Below the pieces are notes generated by a model. It had not been told where the DNA came from. It saw only the letters and a list, made by a program, of their open reading frames with translations, and did not search any database. A stretch of DNA of 39,593 nt from Verrucomicrobiota bacterium (lineage in GTDB: Bacteria > Verrucomicrobiota > Verrucomicrobiia > Limisphaerales > J093). Position numbers and translations under genes: made by a program. The stretch is from the NCBI GenBank assembly GCA_022710935.1, contig JAKLFY010000060.1, positions 1-39,593 on the forward strand. Reading direction: 5' to 3'. Positions 5,266 to 15,070 of the stretch are shown here, piece by piece (position 1 is the first letter of the stretch; each line of letters begins with the position of its first letter).

Positions 5266-5985
5266 TCAATCCGCGCAATGCGAGAGCTTCCGTGCACGCC
5301 GGAGAAGCGCCGCACCCAGAAGCCCGAGTCCAGTCAGCAGTGCGCTGGCGCTGGGCTCAGGAATGACATAGCCATGGATGCCGAATTCACCGATCCCAAA
5401 GCCCAGGTACTCCTCGCTTTTCTGGGAAACGGAAATGGAGTAAAGCGGGTCGCTCGAAAGGGTGCTGTAGAACCCCACGAAACTCGCTCCCCCGCCCCCG
5501 GAGATCGAGAGCGAGGTCGCCATCGTTTCCCCGCCGACGGTTAATCCTCTCACATCGAAGTCCCAAGTGGCGGCGGCGAGTTCCGGTTCGAGGTAGAGGT
5601 AGAAAGCCATTGTGCCCGCAGGCAGGGTCAGGTCCAGTTGCGCGTAACTGCTGCCGCCCGCCCCTGTCCATGGGCTCCAGTAGACCTGACCGCCATATCC
5701 ATGACTCCAGCCGTTCCATTGTCCGACTGCAGGTCCCACGTCGTAGAGTTGGACCGGATCGGAGAAAGCCAGACTACCCACCACCGGAACCGATGCCGGC
5801 GGGGACGCATCCATGACCCACGAACCGAGCGGTCGCGGGTCGGATGGGAATCCCGTCATGGCGTATCCCCCCACAGAGGCCGGTGGGGGGCCGCTTCCAA
5901 TGCTGGTGTCGATGACGACAGCCGCCTGGAGGACCAGCGCAGACAACAACGCGACCACGGTGCATATCAGTGTTCGACGAATCAT
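5266..5985 (-). CDS. PEP-CTERM sorting-signal protein
   Basis: A protein of 239 residues with an N-terminal signal peptide (MIRRTLICTVVALLSALVL) and a C-terminal tripartite sorting signal: the PEP motif in YVIPEPSAS, the hydrophobic helix ALLTGLGLLGAALL, and the basic tail RRARK. Such proteins are cleaved and processed by an exosortase and end up at the surface or in extracellular matrix. The middle is a beta-rich Gly/Ser-containing domain with no recognised enzymatic motif. A clear AAAGGAG binding site precedes the ATG, and a sigma-70-like promoter lies about 100 bases upstream. No exosortase gene is in this window, so it would have to be encoded elsewhere. Confidence 0.8.
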   Translation of the reverse strand: MIRRTLICTVVALLSALVLQAAVVIDTSIGSGPPPASVGGYAMTGFPSDPRPLGSWVMDASPPASVPVVGSLAFSDPVQLYDVGPAVGQWNGWSHGYGGQVYWSPWTGAGGSSYAQLDLTLPAGTMAFYLYLEPELAAATWDFDVRGLTVGGETMATSLSISGGGGASFVGFYSTLSSDPLYSISVSQKSEEYLGFGIGEFGIHGYVIPEPSASALLTGLGLLGAALLRRARKLSHCAD

Positions 5986-6117: not shown

Positions 6118-6435
6118 TACGCAATTCCGTAGGCAATACCGTGCGCAAACGCTGAGCGAACCGTCCTTGCGCCGCGCGGGAGCACCCGGCCTACATCATG
6201 GGCATCAACAGCTTGCTAGGCGGGTCCCCTGACCCGGCGTTCACCAAATGACACCTGTTTCGTTCTGCTCCGCAGGAATTCACGTTCCACGACGATCGAG
6301 AGCAGCAAATCGTCATGATACGTCGATCATCGGCCCCCACCCGAGCATGCACCAGGCGGCGGTCCGAGGACTGCCCCCGTCCTGCCTTCCATCGCCGTGG
6401 AACGAGCAAACCGACAATTGCCCCTGGGAAGAGGC
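6118..6435. other. Intergenic region with a fragment of a dispersed repeat
   Basis: About 320 bases with no gene I can support. Positions 6168-6195 match an internal stretch of the 133-bp palindromic repeats found at 10340 and 17958 with about three mismatches in 28 bases, so this may be a relic copy. A 72-codon minus-strand frame here (6191-6409) has no recognisable domain and no ribosome binding site. No terminator-like hairpin with a T-tract is evident. Confidence 0.4.
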
Positions 6436-8652
6436 TCAGCGCGCGGGACCGCGGCTCAGGATCTCTCCCTGCGTTCTGCCATCCAACTGGTCGCGGATCG
6501 ATTGCGCGCGACTGGCGATGAAGCGCTTGATCTGGTGGACCGGTGCGCGCGGACCTTCCGGGGCCCCGTCGCGCGGGCCTTCGAGCCAGTTGGTGCTGAT
6601 CGCGAGGTCGAAACGCTGGAGACGGAAGTCGGACTCCGCCGCCACCGCGGGCCGGATGACCGCGCCGATCCGATCAATCTGGGGATAGAGACGGTCGACT
6701 GTGAACGGCCCTTCGAGCGCGCGTTCGAGGTGGCGCCGATAGAGATCGCGAAAGGCCTCGACCTTGAGCATGCGATCGAGGAAACGGTTTTCATAGGTGC
6801 TTGGCCGCCAGATGCACGCCCGCTCCCTGCGCTCGTCCGTTCCCACGTAGCCGAATTCGCCCCACCCATGATCGTGGTCCCACGGAATGAACCCAAGCCT
6901 GCCCGTGCGGGGATCCATGTGCATGTAGAAATTCTGGCCGTTGCTCAGGAACCCGTCGTAGCTCGAGATCAGGACGTTCCCCGCCAGGAACCCGGCGAAT
7001 TCATTGAGATCGATGTAGTCCGAGACGCGCTGCGCGAACTCGGGGTCGTCCGCTTGGGCCAGGAGTCGGGCGAAATCGACCAACCGGTCCAACTGCTGCG
7101 GTGTGGCCCTGGTCTTGAGGTCGTAAATGTCCGCGTAAGCGCTCCAGTCCTCGCCCAGGTACTCGAAGAGCTGGGTGGTCACGGGCTTGAAGATCGGGAC
7201 GTCCGGAGAGCCGAAGCGGTCCGCGGCGAAATCGGCATCGACGTTCTCGACCAGCACGTACAATCCGAGCGGCTGGCGCTCGAAAAGGCCGGGGACATCG
7301 AGCGTCAGGTAGGCGTAGGCGGTGCGGGGACCGGGGACGCCGAGTTCGCGGAACAGGTGCTGGGCAAGAACGTCGTGCACGTAGCTGTTGTCCGGAATTG
7401 CGTTGACGAAATTCAGGGTGTGGATCCCCGCCAGATGCTGGCCCCTGACGAACTTGTCCAGGTCGACCTTGAACGGCTGTTTGGGGCCGAAGAGCGAGTT
7501 GACGTAGGTGCCGTTGCCCCGATACCGAACGCCCACCGAAGACAACTGTGCCCCGGCGAATTCGAGATGGGCCCGCGCCCAGTTGAAATCGAGGCCCAGG
7601 ACACCGGCCAGGCCGCTGCGGCGCGCCTTTGGATTGCGCAATTGCATCATGCCGTCCGGCCGCATCAGGTTGGGGACGGGCGGGACACGCGACGGCGCGA
7701 GCGCCTTCCACTGCCCCGGCGTGAAACTGAACTGGGCCGTCCAGACATTGGTGAGTCCGTAGAGTTCGGAGGCACTCCGCGGAGGGGGCGGCGGCTCGTG
7801 CGAGACGTCTGGCGATCGAGCTGGCCAGGGGCGGGCGGGCTGCGCAACCTCGGGCATCTCCTTGGCCAGGCGCCGGCTCGATTGTTCGACGAACCATCGT
7901 GTCAGGTGCCCCTGCCGGAGCGACCAGGCAAATGCCACGACGAGCAGGATGAACAGGCATACGCCCGACGCAGCGGCGGCAACCACGCGCCGCGCGACCC
8001 GTTCGAGGGCAACCCACCGCCAGGCGCGTCGAATCCCGCGCACCAACTCGCTCTTGCGCGTCCGCGGCGACCAGGCCTCGACCTGGGCCAGGGCGCCACG
8101 TTCGAATTCGGTCGACATCGTGCGGGGGACCTGGGCCAGAAGCTTGGGCAGATCGAGGCCGGGCGCCCGGGTTCGAAGCGCCTTTCGCAGCTTGTCCAGG
8201 GCTCGGTCCCTGAGCGCGACTGCGCGGGACTCGTGGCGGCGCAATGCCCTCGCAGTTTCCCGGATGTCCGCCTGCAAGACACAGCCCAGGACAACCGCAT
8301 CCCGAAGGCCCCGGCGCATCCGGACCAGCGCGCCGAGAACGGCTGTGCTCACGCCAACTGGAGAGGCCCTTGGCGGCAGCGGGAGCTTCAGGCGCCTGCG
8401 CTCCCGTCGGACCGCGAGCCAGGTGGACCGGAGCAGCCACGAGGCAATGACGGTGTTCCGGGGCAGTCGGCGCCACTGGAAGGCGAACGCGTGAAACACC
8501 CCGACGAAAACCCGCTCGACGATCTCGCTCTGGTCCGGGGCCAGGAGCGATGCGCTGCCAAAGACCAGCGGCGCAAAGGCCCGGACGAGACTCGGGAACT
8601 CAGGTCCGCCGGGCGCCATGGACCGGGCGCGGCGCAGATCGCGAATGGTCAT
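6436..8652 (-). CDS. ECF-sigma-like domain fused to a CotH kinase-like protein
   Basis: A protein of 738 residues with an unusual order of domains. Residues 1-90 resemble sigma-70 region 2 of ECF factors (EFPSLVRAFAPLVFGSA, then VIASWLLRSTWLAVRRERRR). About 110-160 resemble region 4 (VVLGCVLQADIRETARALRR). A membrane segment follows near 250 (VVAAAASGVCLFILLVVAFA), and then a CotH-type domain fills the C-terminal half. The CotH part shows YRGNGTYVNS, KVDLDKFV and the signature NGQNFYMHMDPRTGRLGFIP followed by WDHDHGWG. CotH proteins are atypical kinases that phosphorylate proteins. The ATG at 8652 places the sigma-like domain at the normal N-terminus. The frame is open further upstream, and a TTG at 8769 overlapping the protease gene's stop is the alternative. 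The protease gene precedes it, probably in one operon. Confidence 0.75.
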   Translation of the reverse strand: MTIRDLRRARSMAPGGPEFPSLVRAFAPLVFGSASLLAPDQSEIVERVFVGVFHAFAFQWRRLPRNTVIASWLLRSTWLAVRRERRRLKLPLPPRASPVGVSTAVLGALVRMRRGLRDAVVLGCVLQADIRETARALRRHESRAVALRDRALDKLRKALRTRAPGLDLPKLLAQVPRTMSTEFERGALAQVEAWSPRTRKSELVRGIRRAWRWVALERVARRVVAAAASGVCLFILLVVAFAWSLRQGHLTRWFVEQSSRRLAKEMPEVAQPARPWPARSPDVSHEPPPPPRSASELYGLTNVWTAQFSFTPGQWKALAPSRVPPVPNLMRPDGMMQLRNPKARRSGLAGVLGLDFNWARAHLEFAGAQLSSVGVRYRGNGTYVNSLFGPKQPFKVDLDKFVRGQHLAGIHTLNFVNAIPDNSYVHDVLAQHLFRELGVPGPRTAYAYLTLDVPGLFERQPLGLYVLVENVDADFAADRFGSPDVPIFKPVTTQLFEYLGEDWSAYADIYDLKTRATPQQLDRLVDFARLLAQADDPEFAQRVSDYIDLNEFAGFLAGNVLISSYDGFLSNGQNFYMHMDPRTGRLGFIPWDHDHGWGEFGYVGTDERRERACIWRPSTYENRFLDRMLKVEAFRDLYRRHLERALEGPFTVDRLYPQIDRIGAVIRPAVAAESDFRLQRFDLAISTNWLEGPRDGAPEGPRAPVHQIKRFIASRAQSIRDQLDGRTQGEILSRGPAR

Positions 8653-8758
8653 CGCGATGTGAATGCGGCGAGTCTCCTCGTGCGCGGGCGCGCGGCCTGC
8701 AGGCTCCTGCAAGATCGGTGCTGCAGGCGCGTCGCGGGCGACGGCTATCGTATCGGCC

Positions 8759-10156
8759 TCATTTTTCAACGGTTCCCCCGCTGGATTGCGCGGCGTGGAT
8801 GCGGGCTTCGTTGCTCTTCTTCCATTCCTCGCCCAGCGTTTCGAGCGTCTTGCCGGTCGACTCCTCCCAAAGCGTCCGGGCATACCTTCCCTCGCGCGCG
8901 GCGGCGTTGAGCTTGGGCACGATGTCCCGGTGGTAAGTCCGGGTCACCCAGTCGAGGAAGTTGCCTGTGATGCGATAGCTGGCGTCGTAGGCGGCTCGAT
9001 CGAGATTGCGCTCGGTGATCTCGGCGCCCCTGGTCTCCGGTTCGTAGAGGAACCAGCGGATGTAGTCGGCGATGCCTTCGACCAGCCAGCCGGGGGTGCG
9101 TGTGGCGCCAGGGTTGAGGCGCCGAGCGCGCCCGTAGTCCTGGACGACATGGACCAGTTCATGCACCACGGCGCCGAGCGCCTCCCGGCGCAGCTCGCGC
9201 CTGAACCATCCGCTGTTCAAGTTAAGGCGGTTTCCGCCCGCCGACGCCGGTGTGCCGCCCATGTCCGTTCGAAACCGCAGGGTGATGTTTGTCGCAGGGT
9301 CGAAGCCGTCGCCGGGCAGCATCGCGACAATCTTCGGATACCATTCCTGGACGACCGGCCGCAGTTTCGCATCGGCCCACTCCGCCAGGTCCGGCGCGGC
9401 CGTCGCGTCGATGGTGAACTTGTATTTGCCCTCGGACGCCCCGAACGCAATGAGAACGGACTCGCCCGTTTGACCCGCCGCGGGTTCGAGGGGCGGTCCC
9501 TGGGCGTTGATGACGTCGATCTCACTGAAGAAGGTGTTTCCGAAAGCGTCCTGGTCTTCGGTGCGGACGACGTCCAGCAGCAGATACCGGTAATCGCCCA
9601 GCTTGCCCGAGCCGGGGTCAGACACCGCGACTCCATACTGCCCGCCCGCAGACCCGTGCCGCTCTCGGGTGTCCACCGCCGCGACATGCGTCCATCCGCA
9701 CGACTCGGGATCGGTTCCTCGGCGCGGGCTCGGGACGAATCCGGAGGCCGCGCCGTCCGCCGCATAGAGCCTATAGACCTGCGGAGCGCGCGATCCCGTG
9801 TGCCACGAGTACGTGTTGACCTGTTTCACCGGGATGACGCTCTTGAGATCGATCCGGATCCGGCCGCCATCCGTCCCGGCGCGGAAGAAAAAGTTCGCCG
9901 CGGGTTCGTCTTCGTCGACCGGAAGCCGTCCGTCGTGCAGGACAGCGAGCAGGCCGCCGTTCGAGTCGCGTTCGCCATCCACCAGGGTGAACTCCGCTGC
10001 GGACGCCGCATCGTTCCTGGCCGGGAGCGGCAAAGAGTCGAATGCGAAGCCGGATCCGGCGGGACCGTGGCCGATCGAGGCGGTGGCCGCGGCGCGGGAG
10101 ACCGGCGCGGCGGCCAGGATGAGAGCGGTGGGGATGAGCAGGAATCGAGTCTTCAT
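8759..10156 (-). CDS. Secreted BSP-family (basic secretory protein) zinc metallopeptidase
   Basis: A protein of 465 residues with a signal peptide (MKTRFLLIPTALILAAAPVS). The N-terminal half is a beta-sandwich resembling a discoidin/F5-8C-like carbohydrate-binding fold (GRIRIDLKSVIPVKQVNTYS, later GDYRYLLLDVV). The C-terminal half matches plant/bacterial basic secretory proteins: VVHELVHVVQDYG contains the HExxH zinc motif, and GWLVEGIADYIRW supplies the downstream glutamate region. It probably acts outside the cytoplasm as a peptidase; the substrate is unknown. Its stop codon lies about 106 bases before the ATG chosen for the CotH fusion gene, and the two could be translationally coupled if that gene starts at the TTG. 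Confidence 0.8.
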   Translation of the reverse strand: MKTRFLLIPTALILAAAPVSRAAATASIGHGPAGSGFAFDSLPLPARNDAASAAEFTLVDGERDSNGGLLAVLHDGRLPVDEDEPAANFFFRAGTDGGRIRIDLKSVIPVKQVNTYSWHTGSRAPQVYRLYAADGAASGFVPSPRRGTDPESCGWTHVAAVDTRERHGSAGGQYGVAVSDPGSGKLGDYRYLLLDVVRTEDQDAFGNTFFSEIDVINAQGPPLEPAAGQTGESVLIAFGASEGKYKFTIDATAAPDLAEWADAKLRPVVQEWYPKIVAMLPGDGFDPATNITLRFRTDMGGTPASAGGNRLNLNSGWFRRELRREALGAVVHELVHVVQDYGRARRLNPGATRTPGWLVEGIADYIRWFLYEPETRGAEITERNLDRAAYDASYRITGNFLDWVTRTYHRDIVPKLNAAAREGRYARTLWEESTGKTLETLGEEWKKSNEARIHAAQSSGGTVEK

Positions 10157-10472: not shown

Positions 10473-11743
10473 CGGCTTGACCGCGCTGCGCACTCTGCGC
10501 TCGCCAAGAGAATGATCTTGGCCAAGAGTGGCTTCGAGTCTTTGTGACGCGCCACGCGCCAGCCATCCCGTTCATCCTGGTGACCCTGTTCCTGGATGTG
10601 CTGGGCATTGGGCTCGTCGTCCCAATCCTGCCGCGACTGATCGAGGAGCTTTCCGGGGGGAACGTGTCGTCCGCCTCGACCATGTTCGGCCTGTTGGCGT
10701 CGCTCTATGCGCTGATGCAGTTCATCTTCGCGCCAGTGCTGGGAAGCCTCTCCGACCGCTACGGCCGGCGTCCTGTCATTCTGTTTTCGCTGCTGGGGTC
10801 GGGGCTGGACTATCTCGTGTTGGCGGTGGCGCCGACGCTGGGATGGTTCTTTGTGGGGCGCATCGTTGCGGGCGTGACGGGGGCGAACATCGCGGCGGCC
10901 AGCGCGTATATTGCGGACGTGAGCCCGCCCGAGAAGCGGGCGCAGAGTTTCGGTCTGATCGGCGTGGCGTTCGGGCTCGGGTTCATTGCCGGACCGGCGC
11001 TTGGCGGCCTGCTGGGTCAGACCGGGCTGCGGCTGCCGTTCTATGCGGCGGCGGGCCTGACGCTGTTGAACTGGTGTTACGGGCTGCTGGTGTTGCCCGA
11101 GTCGCTCGACGCGCGGCATCGGCGCGCATTCGATTGGGGGCGGGCCAATCCGATCGGGTCTCTGGCGGCCTTGCGGCGGCATCCGGTAGTGTCCGGGTTG
11201 GCGGGGACGTTCTTCCTGCTGCACGTGGCGCATGCGGCCGTGCACAGCACCTGGGTGTTGTACACCGCCTACCGGTACCAGTGGACGGTGGCGCAAACAG
11301 GGGTGTCACTGGCCATCGTGGGCGCCATGGCGGCGATCGTCCAGGGCGGTCTGGTGCGCGTGGTGGTTCCGAGGCTTGGGGAGCGCCGCGCCATTGCGAC
11401 GGGTTTGTGCATCGGGGTGCTCACGATGACCGGTTACGCCGTGGCGACCGAGGGCTGGATGATCTACCCCATCCTGGTCTTCGGATCGCTGGGCGGCATC
11501 ACCGGCCCGGCGGCCCAGGCCCTCATCTCGAAAACCGTCGCCCCGAACGAACAAGGGGCTGTCCAGGGCGCATTGTCGAGCCTCGGAAGCGTGGCCGGGT
11601 TCATCGGGCCACTGTCGGCCACGACACTTTTCGGCTACTTCATCAGCGCGCGCGCGCCGGTGATGCTTCCCGGGGCCCCGTTTTACGCGGGCGCACTGGT
11701 TCTGCTTGGGGCGCTGGCCCTGTCGTCGCGCGCGTTCCGCAGG

Positions 11744-15066
<3,323 letters not shown>

Positions 15067-15070
<4 letters not shown>

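Follow-up and report, generated by a model that had tools for sequence, protein, structure and literature searches.

A predicted sigma-fold domain joined to a membrane-anchored CotH kinase-like protein in one order of Verrucomicrobiota

Membrane-anchored ECF sigma factors are already known elsewhere, as ECF52, ECF48, ECF53 and IutY. ECF52 (SCO4117, Streptomyces coelicolor), ECF48 and ECF53 have been described from Actinobacteria; in them an N-terminal ECF sigma domain, considered active, is followed by a zinc-finger domain, a transmembrane (TM) helix and a long extracytoplasmic extension, which in ECF52 contains a carbohydrate-binding domain; these membrane-fused sigmas are thought to be activated by proteolysis (PMC8999054, PMC5826349). 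IutY (ECF243, Pseudomonas putida) has its sigma domain joined to a membrane-anchored C-terminal part, a fused anti-sigma in iron-uptake signalling, and the freed sigma is active (PMC8999054). Release by intramembrane proteolysis has been proposed for ECF52/SCO4117 and reported for IutY (PMC8999054, PMC5826349). PhyR of the alphaproteobacterial general stress response, a response regulator with a receiver domain, has a sigma-fold domain that binds an anti-sigma and not promoters (PMC8103513). In Bacillus, CotH belongs to the spore coat and phosphorylates CotB and CotG. Mutation of D228 and D251 inactivates CotH of B. subtilis (PMC7821199).

The window, i.e. the whole stretch of DNA that was analysed (39,593 nucleotides), contains a minus-strand frame of 738 codons at 6436-8652, without interruption in the open reading frame and its translation, whose product resembles these systems in plan (Table 1). 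As in ECF52, ECF48 and ECF53, an N-terminal sigma-like part is followed by a TM helix, predicted at residues ~223-245, and a C-terminal extension predicted to be extracytoplasmic; as in IutY, the sigma domain is joined to a membrane-anchored C-terminal part. This order of sigma-like part, TM helix and CotH-type domain had been read from the sequence in an earlier note, and the Pfam, family-profile, AF2 and hydropathy predictions agree with it. Unlike the actinobacterial proteins, the fusion carries a CotH domain, predicted to lie outside, lacks the Gln of the core-binding motif and has no recognised zinc-finger anti-sigma between sigma and TM: neither a zinc-finger nor another anti-sigma family was matched in Pfam by any of the 21 members of its family, and Cys and His are both absent from residues 161-222 of the window protein. 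IutY, with its anti-sigma extension, has no CotH, and PhyR, which has no TM or kinase part, serves as an analogy only. On balance, we think it probable that the protein is a CotH kinase located outside the cytoplasm and tethered by a pseudo-sigma, which came from an anchored ECF lineage and was put to a new use.

Table 1. Predicted features of the fusion gene, with positions in the window.
Feature	Position	Strand	Basis
Whole gene, 738-aa pseudo-sigma / TM / CotH fusion	6436..8652	(-)	One open frame
Sigma-2-like domain, residues 17-88	8389..8604	(-)	Profile to PDB ECF sigmas, SigK superposition, motif counts, dN/dS
Sigma-4-like domain, residues 97-160, more diverged	8173..8364	(-)	Sigma-E region 4 superposition, dN/dS
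Helical linker from sigma-4 to membrane, residues 161-222, with basic/Trp juxtamembrane end	7987..8172	(-)	AF2 helices
Single TM helix, residues ~223-245, predicted N-in/C-out	7918..7986	(-)	Hydropathy and K/R balance
CotH kinase domain (Pfam range), residues 375-717	6502..7530	(-)	PF08757, Foldseek
D566 codon, aligned with CotH catalytic Asp D228 (B. subtilis)	6955..6957	(-)	Alignment to 5jd9
D592 codon (PWD motif), aligned with CotH D251	6877..6879	(-)	Alignment to 5jd9

The start codon at 8652 agreed with a 92% identical copy (L010/L012) and with the N-termini of the 21-member family; starting further upstream, at 8883, would make the frame run into the gene before it (8759-10156). On the plus strand, an open frame of 837 codons (6397-8910) covers the full extent of the gene in antisense. 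Many relatives have antisense frames too, and the one in the window probably reflects high GC and codon usage and is not a gene. The upstream gene 8759-10156 (minus strand) encodes a BSP-type peptidase (PF04450, E=1.6e-18) and is kept only in the closest relative. Just downstream, 5266-5985 (minus strand) codes for a secreted protein of small size that bears a PEP-CTERM-like sorting signal, and 10544-15070 holds genes for an MFS transporter (plus strand) and an RND efflux pump (minus strand, 1108 aa, ACR_tran E=1.2e-157). Among 18 loci, no neighbour was conserved beyond close relatives, and no anti-sigma adjoining the fusion gene was recognised by eye from the sequence starts at 10 loci.

A taxonomic search of 196 related genomes, of the kind suggested in the earlier note, recovered the full architecture in 21, which fall into 10 family groups of a single Verrucomicrobiota order. 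The closest relative is the same protein in the MAG Verrucomicrobia bacterium ADurb.Bin006 (MWFF01000132.1), with 92% identity over the full length. The same 21 genomes headed a profile search of the 196 genomes with the N-terminal part, with a clear gap beneath them (1e-55 to 1e-46), and the alignment of all members (A1) showed a common domain plan. Identity to the window protein fell to 19-28% for the N-domain in distant members but stayed at 36-42% for the whole protein. A phylum-wide sample of 387 genomes (E<=1e-100) returned the fusion only from the window's own genome, a weak limit with few same-order genomes among the matches listed and two candidates scored per genome.

The C-terminal part matched PF08757 at residues 375-717 (E=1.7e-51; 176.1 bits, curated cut-off 23.8) over nearly the full length of the model (profile positions 1-320 of 322), which bears out the CotH-type domain of the earlier note. 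The best Foldseek matches of this part were to B. cereus CotH (5jda/5jd9, E=1.5e-17). The spacing of the two aspartates in 5jd9, 23 residues, equals that from 228 to 251 of B. subtilis CotH; the equivalent residues in the window protein, D566 and D592, were invariant in the alignment of all 21 members. The fusion thus has the kinase fold and both catalytic aspartates in common with Bacillus CotH, but it is predicted to be membrane-tethered and belongs to Verrucomicrobiota. Its CotH part is probably active and located outside the cytoplasm, where it would act as a kinase on a substrate in the envelope or at the surface. The scarcity of ATP outside the cytoplasm counts against kinase activity there.

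One strong TM segment per protein was found in all 21 members, each with an excess of K and R on the N-terminal (sigma) side. In the window protein the best 19-residue hydropathy window (2.78) covered residues 223-241, with 7 K+R on the N side against 4 on the C side. The earlier note had placed the TM helix at about residue 250; the helix itself stood, at the slightly earlier position given above, and the topology check by hydropathy and K/R balance gave the same direction throughout the family. Because of the single TM helix and the positive-inside rule, the sequences point to an N-in/C-out topology, which would put CotH outside the cytoplasm. Judged by eye, several CotH homologues of the order that lack the sigma part open with a segment resembling a signal peptide or a TM helix, and this agrees with an extracytoplasmic CotH. 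A second, sigma-less CotH protein of the window's own genome (L002, C193:55823-59998; 857 aa) has EF-hand-like inserts and a signal-peptide-like start, and an ECF-type sigma gene lies beside it in divergent orientation.

Residues 1-370 of the window protein had no Pfam match, and the whole protein had no NCBIfam match. At a lenient threshold of E<=1, NCBIfam TIGR02937 was matched by 16 of the 21 members (best 2.4e-13), Pfam Sigma70_r2 by 10 and Sigma70_r4_2 by 9; individual members, e.g. L020 and L025, still resemble ECF factors. A profile of the 21 N-termini searched against the PDB found Mtb SigE (1.7e-12) and SigW (1.8e-11); PhyR chains also turned up, with weaker scores, both in the profile search and in the fold comparison. 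Residues 1-222, modelled by AF2 with the family alignment, formed a compact helical domain (pLDDT 94, pTM 0.91) with linker helices at residues 168-173, 181-192 and 202-221. The model superposed on region 4 of E. coli sigma-E with 1.5 A over 69 residues and on region 2 of SigK with 2.1 A over 84 residues. Whole-chain superpositions were poor, presumably because the relative placement of sigma-2 and sigma-4 differs. Since Foldseek E-values for the N-domain alone reached only 0.002 at best, the sequence profile is the stronger evidence of ancestry. Taken from profile and model, residues ~1-160 are predicted to have the ECF sigma2/sigma4 fold and ECF ancestry. The likeness of the first 160 residues to sigma-70 regions 2 and 4, claimed in the earlier note, was therefore not recovered with the single sequence, which matched no sigma profile, but it held for the family, both in the profile (SigE, 1.7e-12) and in the structure prediction that the note had proposed, where comparison of the AF2 model with the PDB gave the folds of sigma2 and sigma4.

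ECF factors have a D/E-x-x-Q motif that precedes the conserved Phe in region 2.2. We take its acidic residue and Gln to be D403 and Q406 of sigma70, which make contact with the clamp helices of beta'. In the window protein these two positions are occupied by R47 and V50. In the alignment used, none of the 21 fusions has Gln at the motif position and 12 keep the acidic residue (absent in 9); the closest eight members need a small gap in region 2.2, so that their register there is less sure. The fold positions F53, W72 and L73 are invariant in all 21. In a first comparison set of 21 ECFs (11 from the same genome and 10 anchored paralogues from related genomes), Gln was present in 20 and the acidic residue in all; Gln was also present in 18 of 19 further distinct anchored paralogues, i.e. 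in 38 of the 40 comparison ECFs, with L092 and L137 (G054:C27) counted once as a single gene. The region 2.2 core-RNAP-binding motif of functional ECFs is thus missing from the fusion family. Because the residues of the fold are kept and the core-binding Gln is absent throughout, use of the fold only is favoured over a working sigma, and the N-terminal part has a real sigma fold but probably does not work as a sigma. One missing Gln is no proof of lost core binding, as other contacts could compensate. Among the anchored paralogues, L133 (G135:C115:26000-29600), with a CarboxypepD_reg ectodomain, has Ser in place of the core-binding Gln (AEDIASAVF), which may have been lost independently here.

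Selection on the domains was compared by dN/dS (Nei-Gojobori); with ~55-60 synonymous sites per short domain the single values are rough, and their order is consistent. Between the window gene and its 92% identical relative, the dN/dS values of sigma-2, sigma-4, linker and CotH were 0.13, 0.31, 0.44 and 0.11, respectively. In three further close pairs the ranges were 0.06-0.17 for sigma-2, 0.26-0.35 for sigma-4 and 0.06-0.08 for CotH. All domains had values below 1, the lowest being those of sigma-2 and CotH, and the sigma-2-like and CotH domains are under purifying selection. The low dN/dS of sigma-2 argues that the sigma-2-like fold is maintained, and sigma-4 less so. A residual role in transcription would explain equally well why the constraint on sigma-2 comes close to that on CotH.

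That constraint bears on whether the protein could be a working tethered sigma, in which CotH would sense or modify something outside, regulated intramembrane proteolysis would free sigma2-sigma4, and transcription would follow. The topology is that of ECF48, ECF52, ECF53 and IutY (PMC8999054, PMC5826349). Nearly all anchored paralogues examined keep the core motif intact, and the purifying selection on the sigma-2-like domain also fits a working sigma. We nevertheless regard it as unlikely, given that the core-binding Gln is missing in 21/21 members and the preceding acidic residue in 9/21, that sigma-4 is under more relaxed selection, and that no sigma model recognises the window protein itself. 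The earlier note had offered a membrane-bound regulator and fold-only use as alternatives; with Gln in 0/21 members the second is better supported than the first.

The note had also called a membrane-bound sigma unusual, and such proteins proved commoner than it supposed. The profile of the N-terminal sigma domain had matches in 178 of the 196 genomes, with ordinary soluble ECFs counted in, and the strongest matches below the fusion family were mostly in long frames of ~260-1160 codons. In all 20 long matches sampled, sigma-4 was directly followed by a hydrophobic segment, near residue 240 of the domain. The ectodomains seen in seven scanned paralogues included CarboxypepD_reg, DUF3738 and a DUF5122 propeller, and a CotH ectodomain was present in none of 20 anchored paralogues tested. 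This anchored ECF family with varied ectodomains, often with many members per genome in the order, is little described in the literature searched. Verrucomicrobial ECF-TM-ectodomain paralogues (e.g. L063:5650-8070, L090, L092, L133) share with the fusion the sigma2-sigma4 part and the TM position. In contrast to the fusions, with Gln in 0/21 and CotH predicted outside, the core motif was intact in 28 of 29 distinct long anchored matches, and the ectodomains of the 20 tested were other than CotH. In one genome (G053) an intact anchored ECF, L063:5650-8070, lies directly upstream of the CotH fusion. The CotH branch most likely arose from this local membrane-anchored ECF lineage.

TM-anchored sister CotH proteins without the sigma part share the juxtamembrane/TM segment with the fusions from about residue 215, which fits loss of sigma in the sisters and also gain of sigma by a TM-anchored CotH. 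In the unconstrained CotH tree, 18 fusions formed one clade and 3 stood beside sigma-less TM-CotH proteins, with two state changes; a single fusion clade was not rejected (p-AU 0.21), so that one fusion followed by loss and two separate fusions both fit. The sisters also suggest that the N-terminal domain could be a vestige decaying toward loss in a protein of which the TM-anchored CotH alone matters, and the N-domain is indeed far less conserved than the rest in distant members (19-28%, whole protein 36-42%), with a dN/dS of sigma-4 2-5x that of CotH. We consider this quite unlikely, since the sigma-2 values in the four close pairs (0.06-0.17) are near those of CotH (0.06-0.11) and 21 genomes from 10 families have the whole domain in an open frame. 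As to a misassembly or frameshift fusing a sigma gene to an adjoining cotH gene, which the earlier note had raised and with which the lack of a family match for the N-terminus of the window protein by itself would agree, it can be dismissed, because the same architecture occurs in 20 other genomes, including the independent MAG copy at 92% identity, and the fusion is genuine and conserved. A split version with a separate sigma gene was also sought in the window's own genome, where the matches were ordinary ECFs.

Under the preferred reading of a CotH kinase tethered by a repurposed pseudo-sigma, the product would be a one-pass inner-membrane protein with a CotH-type kinase, its catalytic residues intact, outside the cytoplasm. 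Inside there would be an ECF sigma2-sigma4 part, inherited from the local membrane-anchored ECF lineage, that has lost its sigma function and no longer recruits core RNA polymerase. This pseudo-sigma would probably be a folded protein-binding or anchoring module. We favour protein binding over promoter recognition as its role, and this is the most speculative step; by analogy with PhyR, it might bind an anti-sigma, or some other partner of ECFs, by mimicking a sigma. More tentatively, and with considerable doubt, we suggest that an ECF freed from polymerase binding may have been kept by selection as a cytoplasmic signalling or binding module coupled to the extracytoplasmic CotH kinase, for instance by posing as a sigma to the regulators of the numerous membrane-anchored ECF paralogues that are intact.

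A sigma-CotH fusion was not reported in the literature searched, although the main ECF classification papers may mention one. Within that literature, the CotH ectodomain and a core-binding residue lost without exception appear to be new. To our knowledge, sigma domains are rarely reused beyond promoter recognition, PhyR being the known case. If our reading is true, the fusion would be a second, independent case of sigma-fold reuse and would offer a testable membrane signalling design, with a sigma fold and an atypical kinase on opposite sides of the membrane. Beyond this, the findings draw attention to anchored ECFs with diverse ectodomains, a large and little-described group in one Verrucomicrobiota order, and suggest roles for CotH kinases outside the cytoplasm in settings other than spores.
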